Assembly: GCF_001570405.1 (NCBI RefSeq)
Contig: NZ_BBYM01000053.1
Span: 1 to 45,110, forward strand
Direction: 5' to 3'
DNA: 45,110 nt
From: Microtetraspora niveoalba
GTDB taxonomy: Bacteria > Actinomycetota > Actinomycetes > Streptosporangiales > Streptosporangiaceae
Below the pieces are notes generated by a model that did not search any database, was not told where the DNA came from, and saw only the letters and a list, made by a program, of their open reading frames with translations. Numbering within the stretch: the first letter of the stretch is position 1; the number at the start of each line of letters is the position of its first letter. The position numbers were made by a program, and so were the translations under genes. This document shows, in pieces, positions 22,211 through 32,090 of this stretch.

Positions 22211-23809
22211 TCAGCCGGGCTCCTGGAAGGAGACGACCGTCGGCAGCGGCGTCTTGAGCGCCTCGGCGACCGCGTCGCCCAGCTCCTCCGGGCCGTCGGC
22301 CACCCGCCCGTGCGCGCCGTACGCCGCGGCGAGGGTCATGAGGTCGGGCGCGTGCAGATCGACCCCGACGGGCGGCATGCCGCGCTTGCGCATCCCGTCC
22401 CTGATCTCCCCGAAGCCGCCGTTCACCGCGACCACGATCGGCAGGCTGAGCCGCAGCTCGACGGCGGTCGCCAGCTCCTGGACGCTGAACTGCAGCGCGC
22501 CGTCCCCGGCCAGCACCACGACCGGCCGGTCCGGCCTGCCGACCTTGGCGCCGATCGCGGCGGGCAGCGCGAACCCGAGCGTGCCGTACCCGGCCGGGAA
22601 GAGGAACCGGCCGGGCGGGTCCACCGGCATGCCGACGATCGCTCCGTGGTAGCTCATCATCGAGTTGTCGCCGACCACGACCGTGTCGGCCGGCAGGACC
22701 TCGCGCAGCGCGGCGAGCTGCGGGGCCCACCGCCGGGCGACCTCGCGCAGCTCCGCGTCGCGCTCGCGCTCCACCCGCCCGTCCGGCGCGGGCGCGCCCT
22801 CCTCCGGCTCCGGCACCCGGTCGGCCAGGCCGTCCAGGGCCAGCGCGGCGTCGGCCAGCACCGGAACGCCCGCGACGTGGTCGCCGTACATCTGCGCCGG
22901 GTCGACGTCCACCCGGATCAGCGTGCCGGTCAGGGCGAAGCGGTCCTCCCACAAATCCGCCGGACCCAGCTCGGTGCCGACGGCGAGCACGACGTCGCAC
23001 GAGGCGAGCCAGCGGCGTACGCCGGACAGGTGGAGGGTGGCGCCGAGGCAGAGGGGGTGGCTCTCCGGGACGCAGCCCTTGCCGTTCACCGTGGTGACCA
23101 CGCGCGCCCCGGTGCGCTCGGCCAGCAGCATGGCGAGCCGCCCGGTGACCGGATCGTCGTCGCCGGGCCGCTGCGCGCCTCCGCCGAGGACGATCCCGGG
23201 CCGCCGCGCCCCGCGCAGGAGCCCGGCGGCCCGGTCGAGCGCGGCGGGGTCGGGCACCCGCGGCATCGGCCGGTACGGCGTGGCGAGGTCGGCGCTCCCC
23301 CGGCGGTCGAGCAGGTCGGCGGGCACCTCGACGTGGACGGGGCGGGGCCGGCCCTCGGCGAACGAGATGAACGCGCGGCCGACGGCGGCCGGGATTTCCC
23401 GTATGGAGGTGACCCGGTGACTCCAGGCGCAGAGCGCGTCCAGGGCGCCCGTCTGGTCCTTGCTCTCGTGCAGGTAGCCGCGTCCCAGCCGGGGATGGTC
23501 GCTCGGCACTCCGGGCGACAGCAGCAGGACGGGCGAGGAGTCGGAGTACGCCTGGGCGAGCGCCGCCGCCGCGTTGACCACGCCGGGGCCGGTGGTGGTG
23601 AGCGCGACGCCGGGGCGTCCGGTGACGCGGGCGTACCCGTCGGCGGCGTACCCGGCGCCCTGCTCGTGCCGGGGGGTCACGCAGGCGACGCCGCACCGGG
23701 CGAGCTGCTCGTAGACGGCCAGGTTGTGCGTGCCCGGGATCCCGAAGACCGTGTCCACACCGTGCGCGCGCAACGCGGCGACGAGCACCTCCGCCCCCGT
23801 GGCTTCCAT
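22211..23809 (-). CDS. Thiamine diphosphate-dependent decarboxylase / acetolactate synthase-like enzyme
   Basis: This is a 532-residue ThDP enzyme. The N-terminal pyrimidine-binding domain has the catalytic Glu in RHEQGAGYAADGYAR, a central Rossmann-like domain follows, and the C-terminal domain carries the ThDP motif from GDGALQFSVQEL through VAVNGGFGEIRDG. It is shorter and different from the main acetolactate synthase and resembles the subgroup annotated as 5-guanidino-2-oxopentanoate decarboxylase or undefined 2-oxo acid decarboxylase. The substrate is not predictable here. ATG 23809 starts at the conserved domain; an ORF extends to 23875. A D-2-hydroxyacid dehydrogenase gene precedes it on the same strand with a 130-base gap containing a palindrome, suggesting linked 2-oxo/2-hydroxy acid chemistry. 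Confidence 0.9.
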   Translation of the reverse strand: MEATGAEVLVAALRAHGVDTVFGIPGTHNLAVYEQLARCGVACVTPRHEQGAGYAADGYARVTGRPGVALTTTGPGVVNAAAALAQAYSDSSPVLLLSPGVPSDHPRLGRGYLHESKDQTGALDALCAWSHRVTSIREIPAAVGRAFISFAEGRPRPVHVEVPADLLDRRGSADLATPYRPMPRVPDPAALDRAAGLLRGARRPGIVLGGGAQRPGDDDPVTGRLAMLLAERTGARVVTTVNGKGCVPESHPLCLGATLHLSGVRRWLASCDVVLAVGTELGPADLWEDRFALTGTLIRVDVDPAQMYGDHVAGVPVLADAALALDGLADRVPEPEEGAPAPDGRVERERDAELREVARRWAPQLAALREVLPADTVVVGDNSMMSYHGAIVGMPVDPPGRFLFPAGYGTLGFALPAAIGAKVGRPDRPVVVLAGDGALQFSVQELATAVELRLSLPIVVAVNGGFGEIRDGMRKRGMPPVGVDLHAPDLMTLAAAYGAHGRVADGPEELGDAVAEALKTPLPTVVSFQEPG

Positions 23810-23869
23810 CTCCACCCCCACCCGGAATTCGACGCCAAGGGCTGGTACCTGCGCATCGTATCTTCGGGT

Positions 23870-23884
23870 TGTCACACCGTGACA
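23870..23884. promoter_or_regulatory. Operator-like palindrome TGTCAC-n3-GTGACA
   Basis: A perfect 6+3+6 inverted repeat lies 61 bases upstream of the ThDP-enzyme start, in an AT-richer gap. It suits a dimeric regulator such as a GntR- or Crp-like protein. The regulator is not in the window neighbourhood. Confidence 0.45.
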
Positions 23885-23939
23885 GAGGATCTCAATTCCG
23901 GGCCATCCGGATATAGAGGTATTAGATGGGCTGAATTTC

Positions 23940-24989
23940 TCAACGAATGACGACGTTGGGGTCGGACCGGCCGTTCAGCAGGTTGACGACGGAATCCACG
24001 GCCTGGCGGACCATCCGCTCCATCGACTGTTTCGTGTGCGACGCGATGTGCCCGGTGACGTACATGCGGTCGCCGAAATCGTTCAGCAGGTCCTTGGCGA
24101 CCGTCGAATCCTGGTAATAGCCGTCGAAGACCGCCATGCCGAGCCCGCCGCGGGCGAGCGCGTCGCGCAGCGCCCCGGGATCGACGACGGAGGCCCGCGC
24201 GGTGTTGACCAGGATGGTGCCCGGACGGACCCTCCCCAGGACGCGGCGGTCGATCAGCGCGGCGGTCTCGGCGTTGCCGCCCACCATGACGACGAGGACG
24301 TCGCTCCACTCGGCCAGCTCGGGGAGCTGCCGGAAGCGCACCCCGAGCGTCATCTCCAGGTCCTCCCTGCGGGTCCGGTTGTAGTAGGAGACCCGGCAGC
24401 CGAACCCGAGCCGCAGGATGCCCGCGATGCGGGTGCCGATCTGCCCGAGGCCGACGATGCCGATCTTCTTGCTGACCAGCTCGTCCGGCAGCTCGTCCGC
24501 CCCCGACCAGTGCGGATAGACGGTGCCGAGATGCCGGGGGATGCGCCTGCTCGCGTTGATGATCTGGCCGACGGTGAACTCGGCCACGGCGTCGGGCGTG
24601 CGCTCCGGCGTGTTGGTCACCACGATCCCGCGCCGCCTGACCGCCGCCGCGTCGATGAAGGTCTCGTAGCCGAGGCCCAGGAACGCGATCACCCTGAGGC
24701 CGTCCGCGAGCTCGAGCGCCTCCTCGGTGACGAGCTCCTCGCCCCCGTGCAGGTAGGCGACGGCGCCCGCCAGCTCGTGTCGCAGCGCCTGGGCCGTGGG
24801 CGGCTCCCTCCGGCCGATCGGCACCACCTCGCACCCCAGGCCGTACAGCGGGCCGAGGAGCCGCTCGTCGATGCCCGCGCCGCTCACGACGATCTTCGCC
24901 GACCCGATCTCCACCCCTGTGCGCGTCACCGCGCGATGTGCGACATCCACCGCGGATATGAGATTACTTGTCCGCATTTGAGGCATCAT
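23940..24989 (-). CDS. D-isomer-specific 2-hydroxyacid dehydrogenase
   Basis: This 349-residue cytoplasmic NAD(P)-dependent enzyme shows the nucleotide-binding GLGQIGTRIAGIL, the substrate-binding arginine in LVNTARASVVD and the catalytic histidine in TGHIASHTK. The N-terminal half has the split catalytic domain of the family. The start is uncertain: three in-frame ATG codons lie at 24989, 24986 and 24977, and the frame opens at 25100. I use 24989, which has AAAGA upstream. It precedes the ThDP enzyme on the same strand and is divergent from the SCO2524-like cassette. Substrate is unknown. Confidence 0.88.
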   Translation of the reverse strand: MMPQMRTSNLISAVDVAHRAVTRTGVEIGSAKIVVSGAGIDERLLGPLYGLGCEVVPIGRREPPTAQALRHELAGAVAYLHGGEELVTEEALELADGLRVIAFLGLGYETFIDAAAVRRRGIVVTNTPERTPDAVAEFTVGQIINASRRIPRHLGTVYPHWSGADELPDELVSKKIGIVGLGQIGTRIAGILRLGFGCRVSYYNRTRREDLEMTLGVRFRQLPELAEWSDVLVVMVGGNAETAALIDRRVLGRVRPGTILVNTARASVVDPGALRDALARGGLGMAVFDGYYQDSTVAKDLLNDFGDRMYVTGHIASHTKQSMERMVRQAVDSVVNLLNGRSDPNVVIR

Positions 24990-25171
24990 CAGGTCTTTCG
25001 GCGTAAAAAGGCGGGCATTTCGGATTTTCGGCGCGGCCGTCCTTCCTTGTACAGAACCGCCGGAACGGATCGCGCAGCGTCGGGAAACCCGGAATACCAC
25101 AACGGTGTCGACCTCCCCAAGTGTAGGTCCGGCCGGGGGCGAGGTCCCGCCGGGCGTGGCGGAATCTCACC

Positions 25172-25208
25172 TTGACTTATTGTTGAAACGCCATTCAGCG
25201 GCAACAAT
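25172..25208 (+). promoter_or_regulatory. Candidate promoter/operator upstream of the five-gene cassette
   Basis: TTGACT (25172-25177) is a -35-like hexamer; no strong -10 follows. ATTGTTG (25179-25185) and CAACAAT (25202-25208) form a perfect inverted repeat with a 16-base spacer, about 60 bases before the first gene. Confidence 0.35.
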
Positions 25209-25266
25209 GGCAGCGAATCCGCGCCGACGACGCATCCGGCCGGATCGTCGTGGCGAGGGGGCATCG

Positions 25267-27099
25267 ATGAAACTTCAGCCGCGCCAGCAGCTCCTGGAGC
25301 TCTGGGAGGCCATCGCGCGCACCTCCTATCGGGAGAAGGCGTGGGCCTGGGGCGGTCGCGACAGCTCCAACTCGATCTCGGACGCCGAGCAGCTCCTGTG
25401 CCTGATGTACCCCGCGGCCGAGCTCCCCGGGTTCCGGCTCGACACTCCCGACGAGACCGCGGACGACGTGCTCGAGGCGCTGGAGAACCTGGGCGACAGC
25501 GTCGAGATCCCCCGGCTGTTCCTGCGCCTCTTCTCGCACTACCTGAACACCTACACGCACGACGACGGCCGCCCGGACTTCTCCGGCGGCAGCTACTTCC
25601 GGCCCTCGGCGGAGGGAGACGAGGTCACCGCGGACCAGCGCGGGATCGACATCGTCGACTCCTACTCCATGTCGATCACGCTCATGCTGAGCATGCTCGG
25701 CTTCCTCAAGGTGTTCCGCCAGAGCGTGCGGCGCGAGGGCATCCGCAGGCAGATACGCGAGCTGGAGACCATGGCCGGCGACCGGCTCTCCGCCGCCATG
25801 GTGGGGATGCTGCGCAGTTTCTCGGTCAACGCCTTCGAGCCCTCCTCCCCGGAGGGCGAGGCGCTGCTGCGCACCGCCAACCAGACGGGCGCCCCCAGGC
25901 GGCGCGTCCTGGACGACTTCCAGAAGCGGCTCGAGGAGGTCCGCGCCGGGCTGCGCGACCTGACGATCGGGTCCGGCGTGGTCGACCTCGACAACCCGAA
26001 CCTGCTCTTCGAGTGCGGCTGGTCGTGGGGCGTCGTCAAGGACGCCCCGGCCGTCGAGACGAACCTGCAGGTGGGGCAGCAGCCCAAGGGCATCGCCGCC
26101 GACACGCCCTACCTCTACTTCACCGTGAACGCCCTGGTCGGCCTCGTCGACCTGTGGTCCGAGCGGACCAGAGTCCTCGGCCTGCTCAACGACGACCAGC
26201 AGCGGCTCGCCGCCGCGCTCCAGCTCCGCTGGGACCTCACGCAGGCGTACTGGCGCACCGTCGCGACGTACGGCAAGGGCCGCTGGCCGCTGGAGGACAT
26301 CCCGTGGCGGACCACCGACGGCAAGGAGTCCGACTACTACAGCCTCGGCGTCACCGCCATGGTCGTGCAGTACCTCGCCCGCAGCAGGGCGGGCGACGTG
26401 GACCTCAACCGGGTCGCGGGCATCCTGGAGGAGCTGGCGATGCGGGCGCGCATCACCCGCCGGGCGATCCCGGGCGACCCCCCGGTCGCGCTGCACGAGC
26501 CCGGCGTACGGGTGAACCTCGCCGGGACCGAGGAGCTCGGCCCCCCGCTGATCTGGGTCGTCTCCGACTTCGCCATCACGCTGCTCAAACGGACGATCTG
26601 GGTGGCCAACGTCGCGCAGAGCTCCCGCACGAGAGAGCGGCTGCACAACCTGGCCGACCAGATCTGGCAGCACATCCTGGCGCGCCAGTTCGGCGGCGGC
26701 CTCCACAAGGGCCTCTGGGACCAGCCCGCGAACGCCTTCCCCGACATCGCGACCCGGCACGAGCAGCCCTCCTGGTACTTCACCGAGCGGGTCGTGGAGT
26801 TCCTCGTCTCGCTGGCCCAGGCGTCGGGCGAGCCCCCGCTGCGCAGCACCCAGCTCTTCGAGCTCGCCAGCGAGATGCTGAGCGAGGCCGAGCACCTGCT
26901 CAACCGGGAGCAGGTGCTGCGGCCCACCCGCCCGGGGCAGCACCTGCGCTCCAGTGTCAGCGGCGTCCAGGCCGGGCTGCAGCGCGCCCGCTCCATCATC
27001 GGCGAGCGCCCCGGGAGCGCGATCGCGCTCATCACCGAGGCCCTGCTGGAGCTGGAACGCCAGGCGACCGCCCGGGAGAACGCCTCGGAGGCGATGTAG
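25267..27099 (+). CDS. SCO2524-family protein, first gene of an uncharacterised cassette
   Basis: This 610-residue soluble protein opens MKLQPRQQLLELWEAI, followed by AWGGRDSSNSISDAEQLLC, which I recognise as the start of the actinobacterial SCO2524 family. It is largely helical, with segments that look like an all-alpha toroid or scaffold (for example WVANVAQSSRTRERLHNLAD). It has no signal peptide, membrane helix or catalytic motif that I can identify. ATG 25267 has GAGGGG 6 bases upstream; the frame extends to 25105 without a better start. The next gene begins 2 bases after its stop, so it is the head of a tight operon with SCO2523-, SCO2522- and SCO2521-like genes. Function is unknown. 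The family call is from memory of the protein family and needs a profile search. Confidence 0.85.
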   Translation: MKLQPRQQLLELWEAIARTSYREKAWAWGGRDSSNSISDAEQLLCLMYPAAELPGFRLDTPDETADDVLEALENLGDSVEIPRLFLRLFSHYLNTYTHDDGRPDFSGGSYFRPSAEGDEVTADQRGIDIVDSYSMSITLMLSMLGFLKVFRQSVRREGIRRQIRELETMAGDRLSAAMVGMLRSFSVNAFEPSSPEGEALLRTANQTGAPRRRVLDDFQKRLEEVRAGLRDLTIGSGVVDLDNPNLLFECGWSWGVVKDAPAVETNLQVGQQPKGIAADTPYLYFTVNALVGLVDLWSERTRVLGLLNDDQQRLAAALQLRWDLTQAYWRTVATYGKGRWPLEDIPWRTTDGKESDYYSLGVTAMVVQYLARSRAGDVDLNRVAGILEELAMRARITRRAIPGDPPVALHEPGVRVNLAGTEELGPPLIWVVSDFAITLLKRTIWVANVAQSSRTRERLHNLADQIWQHILARQFGGGLHKGLWDQPANAFPDIATRHEQPSWYFTERVVEFLVSLAQASGEPPLRSTQLFELASEMLSEAEHLLNREQVLRPTRPGQHLRSSVSGVQAGLQRARSIIGERPGSAIALITEALLELERQATARENASEAM

Positions 27100-27101
27100 C
27101 G

Positions 27102-28016
27102 ATGCTCGTGTTCGCGATATCGGACAAGGGCGGCACCGGCCGCTCGGTGACGAGCAGCAACATCGTGTACCGCCGGGCGCTGCAGGGCAGCGACGTGTGC
27201 TACCTCGACTTCGACTTCGGCTCTCCGACGGCCGGCGCCATCTTCAGCGTCAGCTCGGTGGCACGGGGCACCGCCCAGGGCGGGATGCACCGCTACTTCG
27301 AGGGCCGGCTCGCCGATCCGCACCGCATCGACGTCTGGGTCGAGTCCGACCGCGAGGGACTGCGCGGCAAGCCGCCCGGCGCGGGCCAGATGGTGCTCTT
27401 CCCCGGCGACGAGGGCGGCGGCGAGTTCTCCACGGTGAGCGAGGAGATGCTGCGGCGCTGCGTCCGGCTCTTCTCCCGCCTGGAGGAGGAGTTCGACCTG
27501 TGCCTGGTGGACCTCAGCGCCGGCCGCTCGTTCGCCGCGCAGATGGCGCTCGCCGCCACCGCGCGGCTCCCGGGCGTGCCGTTCCGCTGGCTCGTCTTCC
27601 ACCGCTGGACCCGCCAGCACATCATCGCGGCGCACGGTCTCGTCCGGGGCAGGCAGGGCCTGCTCGCGGCGGGGGTGGAGCACGGCCACGACGAGGAGAA
27701 CCTCGCCGACCACATCCGGTTCGTCCGCACAGCCGTGCTCGAGCCCGACGCGGCCGAGCTGGAGGGGCTGCGCGAGACGCAGAAGGCGTGGCTGCACGAG
27801 TGCGACCGCGAGCTGCGCGAGCTGGCCCGCAAGTACGGCGTCGGGCGCACGGCGATGCTCGGCAAGATCCCGCTCGACCCGGTGCTCCAGTGGCGCGAGC
27901 AGCTCATCTCCGACGAGGACGTCCTGTCCAGCCAGATCGCGAACGCCGAGACCGTCGCGGCCTTCGACGACCTGGCGAAGAAGATCGTCGACGACAGCGC
28001 GTGGGAGGCCCTGTGA
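27102..28016 (+). CDS. SCO2523-family variant P-loop protein (MinD/ParA-like fold)
   Basis: This 304-residue protein starts MLVFAISDKGGTGRSVTSSN. This is the position and pattern of the deviant Walker A motif of ParA/MinD proteins (KGGxGKS/T), with signature Lys9 kept but the phosphate-binding Lys replaced by Arg14. The second motif CYLDFDFGSPTAG resembles the switch I region, and a Walker B-like strand occurs in FDLCLVDLSAGRS. Residues 140-230 hold a helical insert. It probably binds nucleotide weakly or without normal hydrolysis; that is inference. It starts 2 bases after the SCO2524-like stop and its own stop overlaps the next GTG start. Confidence 0.88.
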   Translation: MLVFAISDKGGTGRSVTSSNIVYRRALQGSDVCYLDFDFGSPTAGAIFSVSSVARGTAQGGMHRYFEGRLADPHRIDVWVESDREGLRGKPPGAGQMVLFPGDEGGGEFSTVSEEMLRRCVRLFSRLEEEFDLCLVDLSAGRSFAAQMALAATARLPGVPFRWLVFHRWTRQHIIAAHGLVRGRQGLLAAGVEHGHDEENLADHIRFVRTAVLEPDAAELEGLRETQKAWLHECDRELRELARKYGVGRTAMLGKIPLDPVLQWREQLISDEDVLSSQIANAETVAAFDDLAKKIVDDSAWEAL

Positions 28017-28975
28017 CGCCGGCGCAGGCGGTGTTCGGCGAGGTCGAGGCGGAGCGCAGGGTCGCCTCCGCCCCGCTGTCGCACGTGTCCATCGAGCTGG
28101 GACACCTCTACATGGAGGACTTCCAGGCCGGGCCGGACCGGCTCAGGGAGCAGTTCCGGCAGGTGGCCCCGTGGGCCGAGACGATGCGCAGGAGCTGGCA
28201 GGCGCGGGTGCCCGGCGGCCGGGCCAGGGTGAGCACCTGTTTCCTGATCGACGACTACTTCAGCAGGTTCAGCACACCCGCCGAGCTGGTGCCGGCCGTG
28301 CTGGAGGCGGCCGCCGAGTGCGACCTGACCATCGACTACCTCGCCCGGGAGTCCGCCTGCGCCGAGACCGACGGCGTGAAGCTGGCCCGCCTGGTGGAGG
28401 ACCGCCTGGTCACCGACCCGCCCGCCGGCACCAACGGGTCGCGCCCGCCGGTCACCGAGACCGGCTGGCTGTGCAACGGCGCCAGGTCCCCGTACGGCGG
28501 CGCCGTACAGGCGATGGAGTCGGCCCGGGCGTGGGAGCCGCCGGCGCAGAACGCCAAGCGACGGCACTCGATCTTCGTGGACGTCGAGCTGTGGGACTCC
28601 GACAGCCGGGGGCGCACCTGGTCGTGCCCGTTCCTCGCCGCGGTCTGGCAGTTGCTCCGGCTGGGCCTGATCCGCAACGACGGCGAGCTGCCGGTGCGGC
28701 CGGTGCCGGGCGGGCCGCCGTTCCCCTCCGACTGGGAGGAGCTCCCGGCGATCGTCCAGCTCAACCCGGCCGCCGCCCCGTTCAGCGCGTACAGCACCAT
28801 GTCGGTGCTGTCGTCGCGCTTCCTGCCGGTCGAGCTGGCGGTGCGGACGATCCTCAGCCAGGTCTTCGTGGACGCGGAGGTCCTGCGGCAGGTGGCCGGC
28901 CGCAGCGCCGGCGAGGGTGTCCCTCTGCCGGACGAGCTCGTCGACCGCATCTCCTATGTCTTCCTGGGGGCGTGA
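28013..28975 (+). CDS. SCO2522-family protein
   Basis: This is a 320-residue soluble protein from GTG 28013 (GTGA overlap with the P-loop gene). The start of the conserved region, PLSHVSIELGHLYMEDFQ, and a later CFLIDDYFSRFSTPAELVP are recognisable features of this uncharacterised actinobacterial family. ETGWLCNGARSPYGGAVQAM and FVDVELWDSDSRGRTWSCPF are dense in Cys, Trp and charged residues and could form an active or binding site. The protein has no membrane segment. It is translationally coupled to the P-loop gene, which suggests a stoichiometric partner. Function unknown. Confidence 0.85.
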   Translation: MTPAQAVFGEVEAERRVASAPLSHVSIELGHLYMEDFQAGPDRLREQFRQVAPWAETMRRSWQARVPGGRARVSTCFLIDDYFSRFSTPAELVPAVLEAAAECDLTIDYLARESACAETDGVKLARLVEDRLVTDPPAGTNGSRPPVTETGWLCNGARSPYGGAVQAMESARAWEPPAQNAKRRHSIFVDVELWDSDSRGRTWSCPFLAAVWQLLRLGLIRNDGELPVRPVPGGPPFPSDWEELPAIVQLNPAAAPFSAYSTMSVLSSRFLPVELAVRTILSQVFVDAEVLRQVAGRSAGEGVPLPDELVDRISYVFLGA

Positions 28976-29002
28976 ACCGCCGGATCCGCGAACGGAGCGC
29001 AC

Positions 29003-29980
29003 ATGCTGCTGATGGGGGAAGTCCGGACCGGGCTCCTGCAGAACTCGGGGGAGATCCCCGAGTCGCTGTGCCAGGCCGTCCTCGGGCTGCTCTCCGGAGA
29101 GCGGGTGCGGGTCTCGCGCCGCCCCATCATGTACGCGGTGTCGCCCGACCAGCTCACCGGGGTGGACTGCCGGCTGGCGTCGGCCTCGCGGGCCAGGGTC
29201 CGGGGAGTCGGGACGGTGCTGTCACGGGCGTCGGTGACCGGCGGGCGGGTGCTGCAGGGGTCCTCGCACATCCGGGTGGTGCGGGCCGGGTCCGACCACC
29301 GGCTGTCCTGGTCGCACTACCTCGCCCGGCCGGGCGTGGTCGAGGTGTTCGGCAAGGTGCGCGTCCCCGATCTCGTGGAGGGCTTCGCCGAGAGCGGGGC
29401 GTGGAACGACTGCCTGGACCTCGGCAGCGTGAGCGAGCGCTTCATGGACGCCGTCCAGGGGTCCCCGCTCCTGGACAGGAAGGCGCCGTTCAAGAGCGCG
29501 CGGACCCGGCTGCGCTGGGTCGCGGTGAGCGCGGAGCGGGAGCCGGGACACGAACCGGGACACGAACCGGGACACGAACCGGGGCAGGAGGGGCCGGGCA
29601 TCCGGTTCGTCCTCGGCCGCGACCGGGTGCGGACGCTGCGCCTGGTGCTGCCGGGCGGCCTCACCCCCGGCGTCGTCGACTTCTGCGAGGACCTCGCCCT
29701 GCACGACTGGCTGCTGACCACCCTGCAGGTGATCTTCGAACGGGCCGGGGTGGGCACGGCGACGCGGGCGGAGGTCACCGCGAGGCTGGCTCCCGCGGTG
29801 GACCACCTGCTGCACCTGTGGATGCCGGCGGCCCGGCTCGACGACGAGTTCACACCGTTCTGGGAGCGCCTGGAGCGACGTCCGGGCTTCAGCCGCCAGT
29901 GGCTGTCGCTGGTCGCGCGCGTACGCGACCAGATCGCGGTCAACACATTGGCTCTGCTGAGGGAGGCGGGCGGGTGGTAG
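29003..29980 (+). CDS. SCO2521-family protein
   Basis: This 325-residue soluble protein starts MLLMGEVRTGLLQNSGEIP. Its first half holds short beta-rich segments with an SGERVRVSRRPIMYAVSPDQ pattern, and the second half is helical. A charged loop of four Gly-His-Glu-Pro units (residues about 181-196) interrupts it, encoded by a 12-bp tandem repeat, and sits between a beta-rich part and the final domain. No known catalytic motif was found. It starts 27 bases after the SCO2522-like stop and is followed directly by the membrane protein gene. The family call rests on the N-terminal pattern and on the conserved gene order. Confidence 0.85.
   Translation: MLLMGEVRTGLLQNSGEIPESLCQAVLGLLSGERVRVSRRPIMYAVSPDQLTGVDCRLASASRARVRGVGTVLSRASVTGGRVLQGSSHIRVVRAGSDHRLSWSHYLARPGVVEVFGKVRVPDLVEGFAESGAWNDCLDLGSVSERFMDAVQGSPLLDRKAPFKSARTRLRWVAVSAEREPGHEPGHEPGHEPGQEGPGIRFVLGRDRVRTLRLVLPGGLTPGVVDFCEDLALHDWLLTTLQVIFERAGVGTATRAEVTARLAPAVDHLLHLWMPAARLDDEFTPFWERLERRPGFSRQWLSLVARVRDQIAVNTLALLREAGGW
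29543..29590 (+). repeat. 12-bp in-frame tandem repeat, 4 units
   Basis: Units of CCGGGACACGAA begin at 29543, 29555 and 29567; a fourth diverged unit follows at 29579. They encode PGHE repeated inside the SCO2521-like protein. Confidence 0.93.
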
Positions 29981-29986
29981 GTGCCC

Positions 29987-30931
29987 ATGCCAGGTAGGAC
30001 GAGGCTCTCCGCCGAGATCATCCCCCGCACCCTCCGGAAGATCCTCATCACCGCGGCGGTCGGGGTGCCGACGTACTTCCTGACCAACGACAACGGGTCC
30101 GCCTTCAACGGCGAGCACACCGCGTGGGCGCTGCTGCTGACCGTGTTCATCAGCGCCGTCGTCTTCCTGACGCAGTACCTCATCGAGGTCGACAAGCAGC
30201 TCGAGGCGACCCGCCACGAGATGATCACCGGGCTGTCGCGGATCACCAAGGCGACCGAGCTGTTCAACCGGGTGGAGGCGTCGGCGGTGCAGACCGACGT
30301 GATCACGCAGTTGGTGAGCAACGCCACCCGGGTGGACAAGGAGATGCCGGCGCTGGTGCAGGCGTTCGCCCAGTCGGAGATCGCGCGGATCTCAACGCTG
30401 CTCCGGGAGCTGAGCGAGGGCAACGTCATCTACGAGGGCGAGGACCGCGACTGGCTGCTCGGCCTGACCCGGAACACCCAGCGCACCCTCGACGCCCTCA
30501 GTCTCAACGTGGTGGACCAGGGGCCGAGCGAGTTCGACGGCGGGTTCTGGACGACGGACGCGGGCCAGCGCTATCTGGAGGCCCAGCGCGACCGGCTCAG
30601 GTCCGGGGTGCGGATTCGTCGGATCTTCTTCGTGGACCGCGCCGAGCGGGTGGAGTCGGAGATGTTCGGCCGGATCTGCAAGATGCACACCGAGATCGGG
30701 ATCGAGGTGCGCATCCTCACCCCCGAGGACCTGTCCAGCCCGCTGGGGCTGCTCGACTTCATCATCTTCGACGACGACGTGAGCTACGAGATCACGCCGT
30801 CCGCGCCGCAGGTGGGGCAGATCACCACGCACACGTTCGTGCACACCCTGCTGGTGCTGGAACCGCCCCGGGTACGGCAGCGGATCGAGCGGTTCAAGGA
30901 GCTGTGGGAGCTGGCGTCGGAGCCGTCCTGA
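29987..30931 (+). CDS. Two-helix membrane protein with a possible phospholipase-D-like C-terminal domain
   Basis: This 314-residue protein has two predicted membrane helices at about residues 18-36 (KILITAAVGVPTYFLT) and 45-65 (WALLLTVFISAVVFLTQYLI). A charged, probably coiled segment follows (about 70-150), and then a globular part from about 180. The latter contains RSGVRIRRIFFVDR, GIEVRILTPEDL and LLDFIIFDDDVSYE, in the order of the strand pattern seen in phospholipase D-type folds, but the HxK catalytic motifs are absent, so it is probably degenerate. An earlier GTG at 29981 abuts the SCO2521-like stop; ATG 29987 has GGGTGG 9 bases upstream. It is the last gene of the cassette and may anchor the complex to the membrane. 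Confidence 0.8.
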   Translation: MPGRTRLSAEIIPRTLRKILITAAVGVPTYFLTNDNGSAFNGEHTAWALLLTVFISAVVFLTQYLIEVDKQLEATRHEMITGLSRITKATELFNRVEASAVQTDVITQLVSNATRVDKEMPALVQAFAQSEIARISTLLRELSEGNVIYEGEDRDWLLGLTRNTQRTLDALSLNVVDQGPSEFDGGFWTTDAGQRYLEAQRDRLRSGVRIRRIFFVDRAERVESEMFGRICKMHTEIGIEVRILTPEDLSSPLGLLDFIIFDDDVSYEITPSAPQVGQITTHTFVHTLLVLEPPRVRQRIERFKELWELASEPS

Positions 30932-32090
30932 CCGGGGCGAACGTGCGGTCGGGGCGGCAGATCTCCAGCCTCCGCGCGGTCTCCTCGTCGGCGTGGCCGT
31001 CCAGCACGGCCGCGACCAGCTCGGCGGTGGCCGGGGCGAGGGTGATGCCGAGGCCGGCGTGCCCGGTCGCCGCCACCAGCCTGCGGTGGTCGTCGACGTA
31101 CCCGATGATCGGGATGTGGTCGGTGCTCGCCGGGCGGAGCCCGGCCCAGTGGCGCTCGACCGGCCAGTCCGCCACCGCGGGCATGAGGGTGGCCGCCCAC
31201 CTGGAGATCTCGTCCCGCCCGGCGGCGGTCGGGGTGGGGTCCCCGACGCCCTCCTCGTACGTCACGCCGACGGCCAGCCGCCCGTCGTGCCGGGGCACCA
31301 GGTACGGGTAGCCGGTGCGGCCGTCGGAGGTGATCTCGGCGAAGACGTGGTGGCGCAGCGGATAGGTCGTGAAGCCGGGGCGGCGCACGTTGTACGCCTC
31401 CCCCTTGATCGGCAGCATGACGGCGTCGAGGGCGGGCAGCAGCAGCCCGCTGAGGTGCCCCGCGGCGACGACGACCGTGCCCGCGTGGATCTCGTCTCCG
31501 CCGCGCAGCTCGACGCGCGCGCCCTCGGGGCCGGAGGCCACGCCCAGGGCGCGGGCGTCCAGCCGTACCGCGACGCCCGCCCGCTCCATCGTCCGGCGCA
31601 GCGCCTCCATCAGCTCGCGCGGGTCGAGGGCCAGCTCGTCCGGCAGCAGGAAGCCTCCGACCACGGCCTCGCTGAGGAGGGGTTCGAGCGACCGGGCCTC
31701 GGCGGCGGTGAGCTGCTCGACCGCGAACGGCGACGCCTCCCACCGGGGCAGGATCTCCGTCTCCAGGCGGGTCATCTCCTCGTCGTCGAGGGCCACCTGG
31801 ATGTCGCCGCCGTCCAGCACCGGGACCTCGACGCCGGAGACCTCGGCCAGCTCGGCCAGCCAACCGGGGTAGAGGTCGCGGCTGTGCTTGATGACGGGGC
31901 TCAGCCGGCCGAGGCACGAGCTCTCGGTCTGGGTGAGGATGCCGCCCATCGCGGCGTCGGAGGCCCCGAGGCCGAGCTGGGACGCCGCCTCGACGAGGAC
32001 GACGCTCCGGCCCTGCGACCTGATCCTGTGCGCGATCGCGCATCCGATGACTCCGCCGCCGACGATCGCGACATCACAGGTCTCACGCAC
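30894..32090 (-). CDS. Glycine/D-amino-acid oxidase-type FAD oxidoreductase
   Basis: This 398-residue flavoprotein begins CDVAIVGGGVIGCAIAHRI, the FAD-binding dinucleotide fold, and ends with the DAO-family pattern WAGLRPASTDHIPIIGY and ATGHAGLGITLAPATAEL. It resembles glycine oxidase/ThiO and D-amino-acid dehydrogenases, but no thiamine genes are nearby. GTG 32090 has GGGGAG 5 bases upstream. The 3' end overlaps the convergent membrane-protein gene of the cassette by 38 bases, so the two transcripts could interfere. The substrate, an amine or D-amino acid, is unproven. The D-amino acid operon at 16.3-20.7 kb makes a D-amino acid link tempting but indirect. Confidence 0.9.
   Translation of the reverse strand: MRETCDVAIVGGGVIGCAIAHRIRSQGRSVVLVEAASQLGLGASDAAMGGILTQTESSCLGRLSPVIKHSRDLYPGWLAELAEVSGVEVPVLDGGDIQVALDDEEMTRLETEILPRWEASPFAVEQLTAAEARSLEPLLSEAVVGGFLLPDELALDPRELMEALRRTMERAGVAVRLDARALGVASGPEGARVELRGGDEIHAGTVVVAAGHLSGLLLPALDAVMLPIKGEAYNVRRPGFTTYPLRHHVFAEITSDGRTGYPYLVPRHDGRLAVGVTYEEGVGDPTPTAAGRDEISRWAATLMPAVADWPVERHWAGLRPASTDHIPIIGYVDDHRRLVAATGHAGLGITLAPATAELVAAVLDGHADEETARRLEICRPDRTFAPVRTAPTPAPTAP

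Follow-up and report, generated by a model that had tools for sequence, protein, structure and literature searches.

The locus studied here raises the question of what five closely packed genes, four of them from named families to which no function has been assigned, do together in Microtetraspora niveoalba. The genes form a co-directional run at positions 25267-30931 of a 45,110-nucleotide stretch of DNA (contig NZ_BBYM01000053.1), which we call the window, and are listed in Table 1. An earlier note on this DNA had proposed that they specify a membrane-associated, nucleotide-controlled assembly in which the SCO2524-like protein would be the scaffold. Our own leading answer, which we hold tentatively, is that they represent a six-family actinomycete system in the form that has no methyltransferase, likeliest a two-module membrane-tethered complex for mycelial growth and differentiation.

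Table 1. The five genes of the cassette, with their positions in the window.
Gene product	Length (aa)	Position	Strand	Features
SCO2524-family protein	610	25267..27099	+	Soluble by hydropathy; NF040567, 913.7 bits (cut-off 300)
SCO2523-family variant P-loop protein	304	27102..28016	+	MinD/ParA-like, motif DKGGTGRS; NF040564, 505.5 bits (cut-off 200)
SCO2522-family protein	320	28013..28975	+	GTG start; soluble by hydropathy; NF040566, 466.2 bits (cut-off 200)
SCO2521-family protein	325	29003..29980	+	Soluble by hydropathy; NF040565, 399.3 bits (cut-off 150)
Membrane gene (fifth)	316	29981..30931	+	Start GTG at 29981 or ATG at 29987; hydrophobic N-terminus, DUF6879-like C-terminus

The SCO2524, SCO2523, SCO2522 and SCO2521 proteins exceed the curated cut-offs of the corresponding NCBIfam equivalog models by a wide margin and over nearly their full length, which bears out the family names and the gene order given in the earlier note. 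These four families are already catalogued in NCBIfam, without an assigned function, and their order in the window follows the locus-tag numbers of S. coelicolor running down. The packing is as tight as had been described, with a 2-base gap at the SCO2524/SCO2523 junction, a 4-base GTGA overlap between SCO2523 and SCO2522, a 27-base gap before SCO2521 and a near-zero gap before the fifth gene; this spacing suggests coordinated, perhaps stoichiometric, production of the five proteins. The run is bounded on its 5' side by a divergent gene on the minus strand (start 24914 or 25100) and on its 3' side by a convergent minus-strand gene at 30894-32090, which shares 38 bases with the fifth gene. A simple scan for promoter or terminator patterns found none. 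Pairwise dN/dS against three Microtetraspora loci lies at 0.08-0.30, indicating that each of the five genes is under purifying selection.

In a class-wide draw of 246 genomes, the cassette was present in 23, about a tenth. SCO2524, SCO2522 and SCO2521 occupy an identical set of 23 genomes and never occur apart in the sample, a coincidence with a chance of about 1e-32 if the three families were independent, and SCO2523 stands alongside them in 23 of 23. A set of 95 unique loci was also compiled; the named loci among them are the best 80 of 357 and are, by that choice, biased to kin of the window. The adjacency of the SCO2521-2525 operon families is kept in other genomes of this set, and the 4-base overlap of SCO2523 and SCO2522 recurs in 53 of 80 loci. 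Family matching and synteny had both been fixed beforehand as refuting tests, and neither refuted the proposal, the genes being kept together elsewhere. The order 2524-2522-2523 printed for loci L024, L031 and L098 was ascribed to the coordinate rule and not taken as real; L024 and L031 show the usual order.

Conserved adjacency could in principle reflect no more than shared descent, with unrelated genes standing under one promoter. Many of the named loci are indeed close kin of the window, and the flanking genes are also conserved within the Streptosporangiaceae; however, the 23 cassette-bearing genomes span several taxonomic families between which the flanks differ, and pairs of cassette genes are inverted or relocated jointly, which brings this explanation close to refutation and leaves it highly improbable. 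Inheritance of the cassette appears mostly vertical and chromosomal: the tree of SCO2524 mostly follows families, a search for SCO2523 among plasmids gave no match, and a search for SCO2524 among phages gave none either.

The fifth gene had been described as a membrane gene, and hydropathy agrees, placing a hydrophobic segment at residues 50-68 of the window protein and one or more N-terminal segments in 64 of 65 family members. The window protein has no match in NCBIfam, and its Pfam DUF6879 alignment (residues 195-312, 20.9 bits) falls below the cut-off of 23.9; the domain is found at E<=0.01 in 39 of 42 aligned homologues, the best at 1.6e-11. At a score of at least 150 bits, the gene occurs in 19 of the 23 cassette genomes and in none of the 223 others. 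Among the 95 unique loci, 78 have both this gene and SCO2521, always on the same strand (27 inverted together) and, in 77 of the 78, with no other cassette gene between them; their junction shows a 4-base overlap in 21 of 57 cases. Since in the draw it is confined, at that score, to cassette genomes and is strand-linked to SCO2521, the fifth gene is no bystander. SCO2521 itself lies on the opposite strand in 29 (24+3+2) of the 93 loci that have it. The earlier note had missed that the fifth gene accompanies above all SCO2521 or, off-cassette in five genomes, a methyltransferase gene. Neither partner is obligatory, as 4 of the 23 drawn cassette genomes lack the membrane gene and 10 lack the methyltransferase.

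The MinD/ParA ATPases are defined by a deviant Walker A motif, KGGxxK[ST], with both lysines. SCO2523 departs from this two-lysine form: in 82 of 82 family members R14 replaces the Walker A lysine (KGGTGRS), and K9, D36, D38 and D137 are conserved in the same 82. Ordinary ATPase switching is therefore doubtful, and the change counts against a simple form of the nucleotide control put forward earlier. The likeness to MinD, ParA and Mrp consists of an alignment of SCO2523 profile positions 5-70 with the Mrp-type structures 3kb1 and 2ph1 (E about 1e-4), of the signature lysine, and of DFDFG and VDLSAG-type motifs, which we take to be MinD/ParA/Mrp deviant-Walker motifs. The match is, however, restricted to the N-terminal part, and SCO2523 reached no cut-off among the MinD and ParA models of NCBIfam and Pfam. 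By its model name, NF047398 (KGGVGR-motif variant AAA ATPases) covers the same type of lysine-to-arginine change, but SCO2523 scores 35 bits against its cut-off of 90 and constitutes a separate equivalog family.

The other three catalogued families carry no recognisable domains. The window SCO2524 protein has no Pfam match up to E=1, and searches of Pfam with every member of the SCO2524, SCO2522 and SCO2521 alignments gave scattered weak matches, none significant. Searching the solved structures with profiles of the SCO2522, SCO2524, SCO2521 and membrane-gene families returned nothing significant (best E 0.06). Seven pairs of cassette families, compared profile against profile, gave no sign of a common origin, and the SCO2524 profile compared with itself revealed no repeat.

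A sixth family, absent from the earlier note, is the NNMT/PNMT-type methyltransferase of the SCO2525 family, which is found with the cassette in 48 of the 95 unique loci and was not found in 47. Among the drawn genomes, 13 of the 23 with the cassette and none of the other 223 have a match above its cut-off; the window genome has 0 matches. The three SCO2525-family proteins scanned all pass the gathering score of Pfam PF01234, which is 25 (37.4, 35.1 and 35.1 bits), and a paralogue outside the family cut-off scores 18.9 bits.

This companion bears on a second explanation, in which the cassette would encode an enzyme set that makes or modifies a small molecule: SCO2522 and SCO2521 would be unrecognised enzymes, SCO2524 would bind the substrate, SCO2523 would be an ATP-dependent helper and the membrane protein a localiser, and in relatives the methyltransferase and a D-amino-acid-oxidase (DAO)-type flavoenzyme would finish an amine-derived signal. 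The NNMT/PNMT/TEMT type of the SCO2525 family fits such a scheme, as do polar residues of SCO2522 (H31, D80, D81, D108, E113, H185 and C205 among them) that do not vary in any of the 77 proteins, as would be the case in an active site. Of the 29 loci with inverted SCO2521, moreover, 22 have a DAO-type flavoenzyme no more than 2.5 kb from that gene, by a profile built from such loci themselves; one also stands beside four of the five pairs of membrane gene and methyltransferase gene, some of these flavoenzymes being short. Yet SCO2522 and SCO2521 match no enzyme family, the window form has neither the methyltransferase nor that flavoenzyme subfamily, and although 29 of 64 colinear loci contain a flavoenzyme match, 28 of the 29 score below 100 bits. 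We consider this explanation possible but rather unlikely. The flavoenzyme gene flanking the window cassette on its 3' side was rejected as a part of the system, scoring 55 bits against at least 350 for 21 of the 22 in the inverted loci, where the profile was built.

The membrane gene is absent from the cassette in 17 of the 95 unique loci, and in 11 of these its position, or one close by, is taken by a NACHT gene or a different membrane gene. A DUF4062-NACHT-HEAT gene stands beside or near SCO2521 in six, a NACHT-FGE gene in one, and four encode a 270-aa protein with two hydrophobic segments at its C-terminus. For the seven NACHT cases, Pfam confirms the domain in four (L033, L047, L053 and L090) and weakly in L051, the assignment of L052 and L056 being by similarity; a profile from the seven sequences retrieved just those seven of 1633 proteins and is too narrow to prove other loci NACHT-free. 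An anti-phage or abortive system of biological conflict could be built in this way, with a core that stays constant and a changeable position for an effector or sensor, taken by the membrane protein, a NACHT NTPase or the other membrane protein; actinobacterial conflict systems are reported to contain inactive MinD/ParA-like domains (PMC7159879). Against this, the six NACHT-HEAT cases fall within one clade, NACHT genes are frequent in general (four genomes have 8 to 26 matches each), the PADLOC models match no window protein apart from a weak 15.7-bit P-loop hit for SCO2523, and inheritance is mostly vertical, the plasmid and phage searches given above having returned no match. In addition, 5 of the 16 searched genomes with a membrane-gene-less cassette keep the membrane gene elsewhere, beside a methyltransferase gene, so that there it was not simply replaced. 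A conflict role is thus quite unlikely, and the idea that a NACHT gene fully replaces the membrane gene is weakened by the same five genomes.

We return to the two-module complex as the preferred reading, a membrane-bound assembly of the cassette proteins being plausible. The first module, SCO2524-2523-2522, would be cytosolic. Its MinD/ParA-like subunit, SCO2523, has probably kept nucleotide binding but, having arginine for the Walker lysine, may work as a conformational switch that is stable or slow instead of as a cycling ATPase. The second, a docking unit, would consist of the membrane protein, holding its DUF6879-like domain at the inner side of the membrane, and of SCO2521 as the partner reserved for it. 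The SCO2525 methyltransferase of relatives may make or modify a small amine-like compound for the system, whose likeliest role would lie in the growth and differentiation of mycelial bacteria.

Two observations count against that role. The developmental evidence is about SCO2525, which is absent from the window genome, and Rhodococcus rhodnii (L072), which is not known to sporulate, also carries SCO2524-2521 and the methyltransferase.

A bolder version, which we regard as unlikely, would be a new membrane machine of mycelial bacteria, with an invariant cytosolic core around the arginine-variant MinD-like protein, an exchangeable slot coupled to SCO2521 (DUF6879-like membrane protein, NACHT NTPase or two-segment membrane protein) and a methyltransferase-made small molecule feeding it in many species. 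If true, such a machine would make growth, differentiation or self-sacrifice respond to a metabolite signal. The locus matters in that 23 of the 246 sampled genomes of the class keep as one group three orphan families, a membrane protein and a MinD-like protein whose lysine-to-arginine change is invariant. The methyltransferase gene that joins them in many relatives offers a way in to the function of the unit, and the links of the membrane gene to SCO2521 and to the methyltransferase show which proteins belong together for testing.

Among published systems, the actinobacterial conflict systems of PMC7159879, as far as its sections considered here describe them, resemble the cassette in their inactive MinD-like component and through the NACHT neighbours in seven loci of the present set, and differ from it in that the five window proteins have no MoxR, vWA or peptidase match; locus tags beginning with SCO25 were not found in its main text. 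The nearest known system is the S. coelicolor operon sco2521-sco2526 (NF040564-NF040568), which shares families with four of the five genes of the cassette. The window genome differs in having no SCO2525 methyltransferase, and the fifth window gene in having no NCBIfam model. The passages of PMC11472566 that deal with this operon name it as one unit of the HupS regulon, report that it changes only in hupS mutants, and cite SCO2525 as necessary for normal growth of Streptomyces, a tie that makes the function testable genetically.

Five genes lie close together in the window (see the table), with intergenic gaps of 2, -4 (GTGA), 27, and 0 bases, in this order; the last gap is 6 bases if the fifth gene begins at the ATG at 29987. 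The first four match their respective models with scores far over the cut-off. The coordinates, the gaps, and these matches bear out the five-gene run described in the earlier note. Since a divergent upstream gene and a convergent downstream gene, with a 38-base overlap, enclose the run, 25267-30931 reads as a five-gene operon from its gene layout. A simple scan of 24850-31100, little informative for this organism group, found no sigma-70-like promoter/terminator pattern. The genome carrying the window is 8.47 Mb. In many Streptosporangiaceae, a ThDP enzyme, a D-2-hydroxyacid dehydrogenase, and a ThiO-like flavoenzyme flank the cassette (22211-24914 and 30894-32090 in the window, minus strand).

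Cassette genes of the window, and what lies at compared loci (L numbers) without the fifth gene
Feature	Locus	Position	Strand	NCBIfam match
SCO2524-family gene	window	25267-27099	same as other four	NF040567
SCO2523-family gene	window	27102-28016	same as other four	NF040564
SCO2522-family gene	window	28013-28975	same as other four	NF040566
SCO2521-family gene	window	29003-29980	same as other four	NF040565
Fifth gene	window	29981-30931	same as other four	none
DUF4062-NACHT-HEAT gene	L047, L051, L052, L053, L056, L090	near SCO2521		
NACHT-FGE gene	L033	near SCO2521		
270-aa protein, C-terminal hydrophobic pair	L012, L079, L107	3 to 26 bases from SCO2521		
270-aa protein, C-terminal hydrophobic pair	L085	two genes off SCO2521		
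434-aa frame and pentapeptide-repeat protein	L111	near SCO2521		
HEAT-repeat fragment	L091	near SCO2521		
Locus ends at contig edge	L037			
SCO2522 and SCO2521 also absent	L092			

The genes are kept together in other genomes, so that the cassette withstood the synteny survey which the earlier note had proposed. In a class-wide draw, SCO2524, SCO2522, and SCO2521 each occur in the identical 23 of 246 genomes, a coincidence with a chance of ~1e-32, assuming independence, and SCO2523 stands beside the other families in 23/23 cassette genomes (regions of 22 genomes and the window). With at most nine first-look candidates scored per genome, the fifth gene reaches at least 150 bits in 19/246 genomes, all within the 23, and gives matches of 23 to 34 bits in three more outside them. 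A sixth family, the SCO2525 methyltransferase, is over the cut-off in 13/246, also all within the 23; five weaker paralogues (120-141 bits) occur in cassette-free genomes, and a profile search found no match in the window genome. In a phylum-wide draw, SCO2524 is present in 4/246 genomes and SCO2523 is over the cut-off in the same 4, with weak, below-cut-off matches in 49 further genomes, as expected for a P-loop protein.

For the locus comparison, 357 of 365 candidate stretches from named genomes were confirmed; the best 80 of the 357, the window, and 22 further genome regions gave 103 loci, or 95 after removing 8 duplicates. SCO2524 and SCO2523 are present in all 95, SCO2522 in 94, SCO2521 in 93, the fifth gene in 78, and the methyltransferase in 48, always on the strand of SCO2524 and located before it in 46 loci; in the other 2 it follows SCO2521. 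The 78 loci that hold both SCO2521 and the fifth gene have the two on one strand without exception. Another cassette gene, SCO2522, separates them in L108 and none does in the other 77, and the pair is inverted together in 27 loci. Gene calling in 84 duplicate-free loci showed a 2524/2523 gap of at most 10 bases in 82, and 4-base overlaps at 53/80 junctions of 2523/2522 and 21/57 of 2521/fifth gene. These patterns of strand, adjacency, inversion, and junction indicate that the cassette is composed of two units, (methyltransferase)-2524-2523-2522 and 2521 plus the fifth gene.

The fifth gene is absent from the cassette in 17 of the 95 loci; nothing recognisable lies near SCO2521 in L035 and L086. 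Among the NACHT candidates scanned with Pfam (L033, L047, L051, L053, L090), all are over the cut-off except L051 (24.9 bits vs 26.7); L052 and L056 were assigned by sequence clustering. The L033 protein (L033:14627-17377), a NACHT NTPase with a C-terminal FGE-sulfatase-like domain, is tail to tail with SCO2521 and stands where the fifth gene is found in sister Planotetraspora loci (L026-L028, L030, L039). The ~270-aa family, with no Pfam match, is confined to loci that lack the fifth gene. A genome-wide search in 16 of the 17 genomes (all except that of L085) found the fifth gene elsewhere in 7 and nowhere in 9. In five of the 7, it adjoins an SCO2525-family gene, and two of those five (L086, L091) keep another such gene at the cassette; in the L092 genome it belongs to a second, complete five-gene cassette, and in that of L037 it lies on a different contig. 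Because the gene persists in these 7 genomes, relocation accounts for part of its apparent exchange. Of the five pairs that a fifth-gene homologue forms with an SCO2525-family gene off the cassette (L132-L136), four have a complete or fragmentary DAO-type flavoenzyme in their vicinity. In five cassette-free genomes (L138-L142), SCO2525-like paralogues have a large protein of 1428-1602 aa as neighbour, in some cases overlapping, whose start looks hydrophobic by eye; the one scanned for domains, from L139, is a PAS-GGDEF-EAL protein fused to a class I/II aminotransferase.

By hydropathy only, the fifth protein has a strong hydrophobic segment at residues 50-68 and the other four window proteins have none; at least one N-terminal segment occurs in 64/65 members of its family, one or two in 9/83 SCO2524 proteins, and none in the remaining SCO2524 proteins or the SCO2523, SCO2522, and SCO2521 families. 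The DUF6879 match is sub-threshold in the fifth protein of the window and reaches E<=0.01 in 39/42 aligned homologues. In the SCO2521 gene, a perfect 12-base tandem repeat (29543-29583, 3.4 copies) encodes an EPGH-type repeat insert in the protein of this genome, located where the alignment shows a gap in most relatives.

Pairwise dN/dS against three Microtetraspora loci is 0.23-0.30 for SCO2524, 0.08-0.11 for SCO2523, 0.15-0.26 for SCO2522, 0.25-0.27 for SCO2521, and 0.11-0.26 for the fifth gene. In a quick-method tree of 80 rows, SCO2524 groups mostly by taxonomic family but not throughout: Candidatus Frankia meridionalis, for example, is placed next to Solihabitans. The nearest proteins to that of the window are from Microtetraspora (90% identity). 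SCO2523 has no match among plasmids at 1e-20, nor SCO2524 among phages at 0.01; one named locus, L021, bears the title plasmid.

A literature search on the SCO2519-SCO2527 genes, KGGVGR, and DUF6879 within one collection of papers found the operon named in one paper only, in a passage reporting that sco2521-sco2526 changes only in hupS mutants (PMC11472566), and no reported function for the SCO2521-SCO2524 families. Citing Gehring 2004, a passage of the same paper calls SCO2525 necessary for normal growth, and one in PMC6344877 gives it a morphogenetic role; a third passage, on levels of S-adenosylmethionine, mentions mutagenesis of SCO2525 together with metH (PMC3017869). We tentatively favour the reading that the cassette products would form a complex that is tethered to the membrane and linked to growth and differentiation. 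A small-molecule enzyme set, ranked second, seems unlikely, and a conflict system, ranked third, more unlikely still; the rest of the probability falls to other or unknown explanations.

The putative membrane-associated, nucleotide-controlled assembly of the earlier note remains a reasonable idea and is strengthened by the two-module gene pattern; its nucleotide control is weakened by the P-loop of SCO2523. Five residues do not vary across the 82 SCO2523 proteins compared: K9 and R14, both within KGGTGRS, and the aspartates D36, D38, and D137. MinD-type proteins have a lysine at the position equivalent to R14, whereas SCO2523 has an arginine; this invariant difference makes an ordinary ATPase cycle doubtful, and nucleotide binding would stay compatible with it.
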